Assembly (NCBI GenBank): GCA_024642525.1
Contig: JAHEAX010000059.1
Span: forward strand, 186,001-250,000
DNA: 64,000 nt
Direction: 5' to 3'
Origin: Erythrobacteraceae bacterium
Lineage (GTDB): Bacteria; Pseudomonadota; Alphaproteobacteria; Sphingomonadales; Sphingomonadaceae
The position numbers and the translations under genes are program-made. Under the pieces are notes generated by a model. It was given only the letters and a program-made list of their open reading frames with translations, searched no databases and was not told the origin of the DNA. This document shows positions 26,042-28,756 of the stretch, piece after piece; the first letter of the stretch is position 1, and each line of letters opens with the position of its first letter.

Positions 26042-26047
26042 GTTGGT

Positions 26048-26074
26048 GGAACAGCCTTGGGGACAAGGCGTTCC
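26048..26074 (+). promoter_or_regulatory. Dyad and perfect EcfG-type promoter match between PAP2 and phr
   Basis: On the plus strand GGAAC (26048-26052), exactly 16 bp, then CGTT (26069-26072) match the EcfG general-stress promoter consensus of Alphaproteobacteria, 20 bp before the phr ATG. The same bases form an inverted repeat: GGAACAGCCTTG and CAAGGCGTTCC around GGGA, with one bulged A. On the minus strand it reads GGAAC-N16-TGTT toward the PAP2 gene. It may therefore be a promoter, a palindromic operator, or both. Confidence 0.5.
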
Positions 26075-26091
26075 CTGCAAGAAGGGAAATC

Positions 26092-27480: not shown

Positions 27481-27517
27481 TCTTGCCCCTGATGGCTTGG
27501 GGCGGCATAGGGATTTC

Positions 27518-28756
27518 ATGACGACAGCGGGTTATGGCAGAGGCGGGGAACTCCTGGCAGGCGCTGCACGGTTCGAACGCGAACCGGGTGTTCTTGCACG
27601 GTTGATTGCGCCCGGTTTTCACAAGGTTCTGGACAAGGTCGACCAGGGAATGGAATTCGGCTCCATCACCGGCAGGCTTCCCGATGGCACGACACGTATC
27701 CTTGGCGGCCGAAAACCCGGCTTTGATGCCGAAGTTATTCTGCACGACTGGCGCGGACTGATGCGGCTTGCCACCAATGGTTCCATCGGCTGGTACCAGG
27801 CGTGGGAAGCAGGCGAATGGGAAAGCCCCGATCCGGTATCAGTGTTCGCCCTGTTCAGCGTAAACGGAGAAGCCCTGGGCGACACCGGACGAGCCAAGGG
27901 GCCGTTCCGCTGGATTGCACGGCTGGCCCATTGGTCCAACCGCAACACCCATTCCGGTTCGCAGCGCAATATTCACGCCCATTATGACCTGGGCAATGAT
28001 TTCTACGCCCAGTGGCTGGACCCGACGATGAGCTACTCCTCGGCACTATTTGCCGATGAAGATGATCTGGAACGTGCGCAGCGCCGCAAATGGGAACGGC
28101 TGGCAGAACGGCTGGGCAAACCCGAAACTGTCCTTGAAATCGGCTGCGGCTGGGGTTCGCTTGCAGATTACCTAGCGGGCAGGGGCGCCAGAGTTACCGG
28201 CATCAGCCTGTCGGACGAACAGCTGGCATGGGCGCGGGCGCGACATGACAAGTCGATTGATTTTCGCAAGCAGGATTACCGCGATGTCGATGAACAGTTT
28301 GACGCCATCGTCAGTGTCGAAATGGTGGAAGCGGTTGGCCGCGAATATTGGCCGTCCTATTTTGACTGTATCGCAAATAATCTGAAATCCGGCGGGCGTG
28401 CGGCCATCCAGTATATCTCCATGGAAGATTCGCTATTCGATGCCTATGCGACCAGCGCCGATTTCATCCAGGCTTATATTTTTCCCGGCGGCCTGCTGAT
28501 CAAGACGAGCGAATTCAAAGAGCTTGCAGCAGAGCGCGGGCTTGCATGGGAAGACCAGCAGGACTTCGGCAGTCACTATGCCCGCACGCTGAAAATCTGG
28601 CGCGAAAACTTCGATGCGGCATTGGCCGAGGGGCGGCTGCCAGCAGGTTTTGACGAGAAATTCGCACGACTTTGGCGGTTTTATCTGATGTATTGCGAAG
28701 GCGGGTTCCGGGGTGGCAGCATCGATGTGCATCAGGTCACCCTGATAAAAACATAA
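27518..28756 (+). CDS. cfa: Cyclopropane-fatty-acyl-phospholipid synthase
   Basis: SAM-dependent methylene transfer to unsaturated acyl chains of membrane phospholipids. The 412 residues include an N-terminal lipid-binding domain, HYDLGNDFYAQWLDPTMSYSSALF, the SAM site VLEIGCGWGSLADYLA (about 206-221), EMVEAVGREYW and YIFPGG, all typical for the family. ATG 27518 (MTTAGYGRGG) is taken as start; an upstream in-frame codon at 27497 adds seven residues. In Rhodobacter sphaeroides photolyase and cfa genes belong to one photo-oxidative stress regulon, which agrees with the adjacency here. Confidence 0.93.
   Translation: MTTAGYGRGGELLAGAARFEREPGVLARLIAPGFHKVLDKVDQGMEFGSITGRLPDGTTRILGGRKPGFDAEVILHDWRGLMRLATNGSIGWYQAWEAGEWESPDPVSVFALFSVNGEALGDTGRAKGPFRWIARLAHWSNRNTHSGSQRNIHAHYDLGNDFYAQWLDPTMSYSSALFADEDDLERAQRRKWERLAERLGKPETVLEIGCGWGSLADYLAGRGARVTGISLSDEQLAWARARHDKSIDFRKQDYRDVDEQFDAIVSVEMVEAVGREYWPSYFDCIANNLKSGGRAAIQYISMEDSLFDAYATSADFIQAYIFPGGLLIKTSEFKELAAERGLAWEDQQDFGSHYARTLKIWRENFDAALAEGRLPAGFDEKFARLWRFYLMYCEGGFRGGSIDVHQVTLIKT

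Follow-up and report, generated by a model that had tools for sequence, protein, structure and literature searches.

A near-palindromic EcfG-type element as a probable two-way promoter between divergent photolyase and PAP2 phosphatase genes of a sphingomonad

The short gap between a photolyase gene (phr) and a divergent PAP2 phosphatase gene in an Erythrobacteraceae bacterium holds a 27-bp near-palindrome, GGAAC-N17-GTTCC. This core, at 26048-26074, is most probably (we put the probability at roughly 0.8) a bidirectional promoter for EcfG, the general-stress sigma factor, that would be used by one polymerase at a time. We analysed the element in a window of 64,000 nucleotides (contig JAHEAX010000059.1, positions 186,001 to 250,000), which supplies the coordinates used here, and compared it with loci of relatives and with other sites in the same genome. 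What carries the proposal is the sequence of the element, its conservation, its dependence on gene layout, and the presence in this genome of nepR, an ecfG-like gene and phyR. The features of the region are collected in Table 1.

EcfG promoters are described as having a -35 box GGAAC or GCAAC and a CGTT-like -10 box at a spacing of 16-17 bp (PMC7083833, PMC6599016, PMC3892343). For S. granuli, CGTT is reported as the consensus -10, TGTT as one of the frequent -10 boxes, and GCAAC as a known alternative -35 (PMC7083833), while the Sphingomonas melonis EcfG motif is given as GGAAC-N17-20-GTT (PMC6599016). The gap between the PAP2 ATG (26041, minus strand) and the phr ATG (26092) runs from 26042 to 26091 and measures 50 bases, one more than the 49 bp stated in the first-pass annotation of this DNA. 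That annotation had also read GGAAC-N16-CGTT upstream of the photolyase and, on the PAP2 side, GGAAC-N16-TGTT. Direct reading confirms both, the former at 26048-26072 on the plus strand and the latter on the minus strand of the same bases, from 26074 to 26050; the minus-strand reading arises from GTTCC at 26070-26074, which is GGAAC in reverse complement. As GTTCC also holds the -10 GTT, GGAAC-N17-GTTCC is in its letters an EcfG promoter from either end. EcfG-type boxes, GGAAC-N16/17-CGTT-like, are therefore present on both strands of the core and share bases, with each -35 overlapping the -10 of the other strand: AAC at 26050-26052, inside the phr -35, is the complement of the GTT in the PAP2 -10. 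Each box would double as a -35 for one strand and a -10 for the other.

Table 1. Features of the PAP2-phr region, in window coordinates
Feature	Position	Strand	Basis
PAP2 phosphatase gene, 260 aa	25259..26041	-	Pfam PF01569, E 2.3e-20
phr, DNA photolyase, 462 aa	26092..27480	+	Pfam PF03441 and PF00875
Cyclopropane-fatty-acid-synthase-like gene, 34 nt past phr	27515..28756	+	Pfam PF02353
Symmetric core GGAAC-N17-GTTCC, 27 bp, near-palindrome; proposed two-way EcfG promoter	26048..26074		direct read and conservation
GGAAC, putative -35 box of phr	26048..26052	+	direct read; consensus as described in PMC7083833, PMC6599016
CGTT, putative -10 box of phr	26069..26072	+	direct read; matches S. granuli consensus
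GGAAC, putative -35 box of PAP2	26070..26074	-	direct read; CC after forward GTT follows gene layout
TGTT, putative -10 box of PAP2	26050..26053	-	direct read; among frequent S. granuli -10 boxes
Inner inverted repeat GCCTTG-GGGA-CAAGGC, arms 26054-26059 and 26064-26069	26054..26069		direct read
AAGGGA, possible Shine-Dalgarno sequence of phr	26082..26087	+	direct read

The region had been described as built around a single dyad. It contains instead two inverted repeats: GGAAC/GTTCC on the outside and GCCTTG/CAAGGC on the inside are half a base out of register, so that the hairpin carries a bulged A. The hairpin is stable for its composition (z -3.22, 61 nt folded as DNA). An RNA hairpin or attenuator was ruled out, since the dyad lies upstream of both predicted starts, and a terminator was set aside, as the genes diverge.

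The one-way motif by itself is not above chance, and its support comes from position and conservation. GGAAC-N16/17-CGTT has one match in the window against 0.79 expected, and it occurs 36 times in the whole genome against 110 times in a reversed-letter control. The argument therefore rests on comparison. The comparison drew on 150 phr loci. Eighty of them are named loci, the best of 586, and a family-wide search supplied 30 loci plus 40 more upstream stretches; these last two sets together represent 70 of the 83 genomes in which that search matched phr. For several loci the phr start was extrapolated from an alignment. At 31 of the 150 loci, 29 of them distinct, a PAP2 homologue lies next to phr and divergent from it. 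The strict symmetric site, GGAAC-N17/18-GTTCC, is present at 24 of these 29, and the site with GCAAC allowed at 28, so that the conservation check proposed with the first reading of the dyad was run and passed. The relaxed motif, G[GC]AAC...GTT[GC]C, was found in just 17 of 29,000 letter-shuffled 100-nt upstream regions of the divergent loci; it was chosen after the first sites had been seen. At L070, L090, L093 and L103, GCAAC replaces GGAAC in one direction, which breaks the symmetry yet would keep a usable -35. A sphingomonad-like phr-PAP2 locus with the symmetric site also occurs in a record titled 'Actinobacteria bacterium 21-64-8' (L077), probably a mislabelled or mixed assembly.

The same comparison bears on whether the dyad is an operator, the site of a dimeric repressor or activator that governs both genes. 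The symmetry of the arms and the unusually good inner hairpin in the window would suit such a site, although among relatives only the outer five bases are conserved. Inner coaxial positions pair in 60 of 243 cases over the 28 sites, below the shuffled-spacer mean of 68.8, and the spacing between the arms is 17 in 9 sites and 18 in 19. EcfG promoters tolerate this variation, and fixed dimer sites usually do not. The spacer in relatives is thus neither palindromic nor of one length, and its lack of symmetry argues against an extended operator. In addition, the departures from symmetry are to GCAAC, a known -35, and loci without a divergent PAP2 gene retain a one-way promoter rather than half a dyad and another promoter. 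We consider an operator very improbable, and the repressor version of it, which the first-pass annotation had offered beside a shared promoter, is disfavoured. Conservation among relatives falls on the bases of the two EcfG promoters. The inner arm of the window, at 6 bp, is the longest among the 28 sites, where the second longest measures 4, and shuffling the window spacer gave this length in 20 of 20,000 trials; the inner inverted repeat is probably not functional and a peculiarity of this genome, the long hairpin being due to chance or lineage-specific.

Should the GTTCC symmetry be there for PAP2, loci in which PAP2 is not divergent would be expected to lack it. We compared the divergent loci with 114 distinct phr loci without a divergent PAP2 gene (L094 was dropped, with too little sequence). 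A forward EcfG-type site lies within 100 nt at 18 of these 114 loci and was not found within that distance at the other 96, so EcfG control of phr is not general. The bases CC after the forward GTT, which complete the reverse GGAAC, are present at 25 of the 29 divergent loci and at none of the 18 forward sites elsewhere (Fisher p 1.6e-9, ignoring relatedness); at 4 of the 18 the bases are GC, which would suit a reverse -35 of the GCAAC form. A further one-way example in the genome under study is the phyR promoter, where AA follows GGAAC-N16-CGTT. Across a FastTree tree of 103 photolyases, the divergent state must have switched 11 times or more and the CC state 10 times or more. Seven independent supported pairs drawn from all loci gave, on average, 5.7 in which CC goes with the divergent state and 0 against (median p 0.031). 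When only loci that have a forward site are considered, five pairs remain, 4.3 with and 0 against, which is not significant (median p 0.125). Collectively, these counts suggest that the second promoter orientation is retained only where a gene lies there, and the earlier idea that one site could drive both genes is favoured by the comparison, both by the symmetric site in 28 of 29 loci of this layout and by the distribution of CC.

The layout data also address a simpler arrangement, in which EcfG would use the element to transcribe phr alone, GTTCC would be symmetric by coincidence or through an extended -10 preference, and PAP2 would be transcribed from elsewhere. This is consistent with L032 (identical in sequence to L113), which is divergent yet has a one-way site, CGTTCA, without a reverse -35, and with the one-way sites at the 18 phr loci without a divergent PAP2 gene. 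The contrast in CC between the two layouts, however, shows that CC is not a general preference of forward promoters. Further evidence against a promoter for phr only is the position of the PAP2 start, as the last T of the reverse -10 stays 8-10 nt from the PAP2 ATG in 26 of 28 loci (8 nt in the window; L133 and L137 are the exceptions). We regard this arrangement as unlikely. PAP2 homologues about 1 kb from phr are present at ten further loci (L038, L049, L051, L060, L064, L065, L067, L097, L125 and L135), with no EcfG site within 110 nt of their extrapolated starts. Nine of these ten homologues are 39-46% identical to the window PAP2 and are probably paralogues; the L097 homologue is 62% identical and may be an orthologue without the site. 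Similar short stretches that resemble dispersed intergenic repeats recur immediately before phr across several species, CTTCGACA..GCTCAG.. and GAAACAAGTTCAGCATGACGG, at L052, L079, L086, L117, L118, L132 and L136, and at L074, L078, L085 and L091.

On the phr side, the last T of the -10 lies 8-9 nt from the ATG in 20 of 28 loci, and the other eight phr genes begin 19 nt (window) to 57 nt from the -10, the phr start of L133 being approximate. A Rhizobium NT-26 RpoE2 promoter whose start was mapped by 5' RACE is given as GGAAC-N18-TT-N8-G (PMC6011840), and we read the final G as the start base. The distances to the ATGs observed here fit this spacing. By analogy, the window PAP2 mRNA should start at its own ATG (26041), 8 nt past the -10, and the window phr mRNA is expected to start near 26081; in the 20 loci with short distances on the phr side, both mRNAs would be leaderless or nearly so. 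The -10-to-ATG distances in the sequences therefore hint at leaderless mRNAs. In S. melonis, several EcfG-dependent genes have the motif 2-10 nt from the predicted start codon (PMC6599016). Mapping in Sinorhizobium meliloti yielded 171 leaderless starts, every one of them at AUG (PMC3616915).

The genome encodes NepR. On contig C49, the gene of an EcfG-like ECF sigma factor lies just after nepR, PhyR is encoded on the same contig, and a CHASE-HWE histidine kinase gene is divergent from nepR. The kinase/nepR intergenic region contains a second symmetric site, GGAACCAAAGAAGCGCATCTTCGTTCC (G000:C49:18910-18936, the same as L214:4411-4437). Among the 30 best-scoring nepR loci (88 of 99 genomes had a match, 58 of them outside this set), 27 have the strict symmetric site and 29 have the kinase divergent from nepR. 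Of the three loci that lack the strict site, L239 has GTTTC and no kinase was found there, L258 has GTTAC, and L256 has no site. Both starts at kinase/nepR lie tens to hundreds of bases from the site, so these mRNAs would have leaders. The nepR site is relevant to the question of whether another ECF sigma factor with a similar motif, and not EcfG, uses the phr/PAP2 element. Photolyase control by another ECF factor does exist, in that R. sphaeroides phrA is under RpoE (PMC5830050). Against this, the EcfG pattern described for a sphingomonad in the cited sources is GGAAC or GCAAC with CGTT, TGTT or GGTT, and the same symmetric site precedes nepR-ecfG itself. Use by a different ECF factor thus has little probability, and we retain EcfG as the factor that would recognize the core.

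The symmetric arrangement seems to be limited to a few loci per genome. Genome counts gave no excess of symmetric sites over the reversed-letter control, which differs in coding bias and carries little weight either way. The genome under study has six symmetric sites: those at phr/PAP2 and kinase/nepR are near the starts of divergent genes, the site at C35:20824 lies between divergent ORFs that are 224 and 343 bases away, and three are inside ORFs. Across five genomes we found 24 symmetric sites, 20 of which could be placed by a rough longest-ORF call, 14 falling within an ORF and 6 in gaps between ORFs. Two of the 14 were assigned wrongly because of spurious ORFs, namely the known phr site and one nepR site, and the unplaced sites are three of G073 and the nepR site of the genome under study. 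For control sites, 21 were found and 16 placed, 15 of them inside ORFs and 1 between. A further set of 20 stretches selected by eye, many of them for their AT-rich spacers, enters the counts only through the five that belong to the genome under study. A symmetric site between ORFs in another genome (G060, L228:2002-2029) lies 36 nt before a 284-aa minus-strand ORF, for which Pfam gave no hit, and 274 nt before a plus-strand ORF of 232 aa.

The relative position of the boxes sets the phr/PAP2 site apart from systems already described. It is similar to the EcfG/SigT/RpoE2 (ECF15) promoters of the alphaproteobacterial general stress response, with the same boxes and 16-17 bp spacing, and unlike the usual promoters of this class in that two of them are superimposed. 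The bidirectional promoters of E. coli reported by Warman and colleagues are pseudo-symmetrical, and one polymerase excludes the other (PMC12825309); the phr/PAP2 DNA is likewise pseudo-symmetrical, with two mutually exclusive polymerase orientations expected. In the E. coli type as described there, the symmetry is in a shared -10 and the starts are beside or within the element, whereas at phr/PAP2 the symmetry relates -35 to -10, the two boxes exchange roles over 27 bp, the sigma factor would be of the ECF type and both genes start beyond the element. Divergent phyR and nepR-ecfG units with EcfG-dependent promoters (PMC4814048) are a further parallel, two divergent units whose dependence on EcfG is reported there and proposed here; the cited passage, however, describes promoters for each unit and not one superimposed site, and phr and PAP2 are not regulators. 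The HrpL-dependent hrpJ promoter beside divergent hrpL also combines an ECF factor with a divergent region in which polymerase at one promoter affects the other, but that case is described with two different sigma factors and adjacent promoters without shared symmetric boxes (PMC5263251). Our searches of open-licence papers turned up no account of EcfG promoters superimposed on one symmetric site; in the single paper where 'bidirectional' occurs together with 'EcfG', the word refers to BLAST hits. The phr/PAP2 site belongs to a known kind of element but has a new geometry, and its reading as a two-way EcfG promoter appears well supported by the comparison of relatives.

We infer the following course of events at the site. 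EcfG-RNA polymerase would occupy the core in one orientation at a time, a rightward polymerase transcribing phr, probably with the cyclopropane synthase gene, and a leftward polymerase transcribing PAP2. When PhyR frees EcfG from NepR, phr and PAP2 would be switched on together, and the ratio of the two would depend partly on the two -10 boxes, CGTT for phr against the probably weaker TGTT for PAP2. It is probable that phr and the cyclopropane-fatty-acid-synthase-like gene form one operon; a homologue of the latter follows phr at 24 of the 28 divergent loci with enough downstream sequence and at 56 of 78 of the other phr loci. A beta-lactamase-fold gene (PF00144; 28791-29969, plus strand) is located downstream of the cyclopropane synthase gene. 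To judge from gene function, the three products (photolyase, membrane-lipid phosphatase and cyclopropane synthase) would suit a general stress response.

As the EcfG -35 and -10 boxes are nearly reverse complements, the gain of two bases would turn a one-way promoter into a two-way one. At phr/PAP2 these two bases (CC) come and go with gene layout, which allows the function of bidirectional promoters to be tested beyond E. coli on natural variation that can be counted. As a design for expressing two genes together, both probably leaderless, it is very small, with about 40-41 bp between the ATGs in compact loci, and the same arrangement is suggested at the master locus of the stress response. 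Palindromic EcfG promoters may then be a recurrent either-or device in the family, a proposal to which we give even odds: one such promoter would serve two leaderless genes at phr/PAP2 and another the kinase and nepR-ecfG at the master locus, and the outputs, kinase versus sigma/anti-sigma and repair versus membrane genes, would be set by competing orientations of one polymerase and tunable by single bases.
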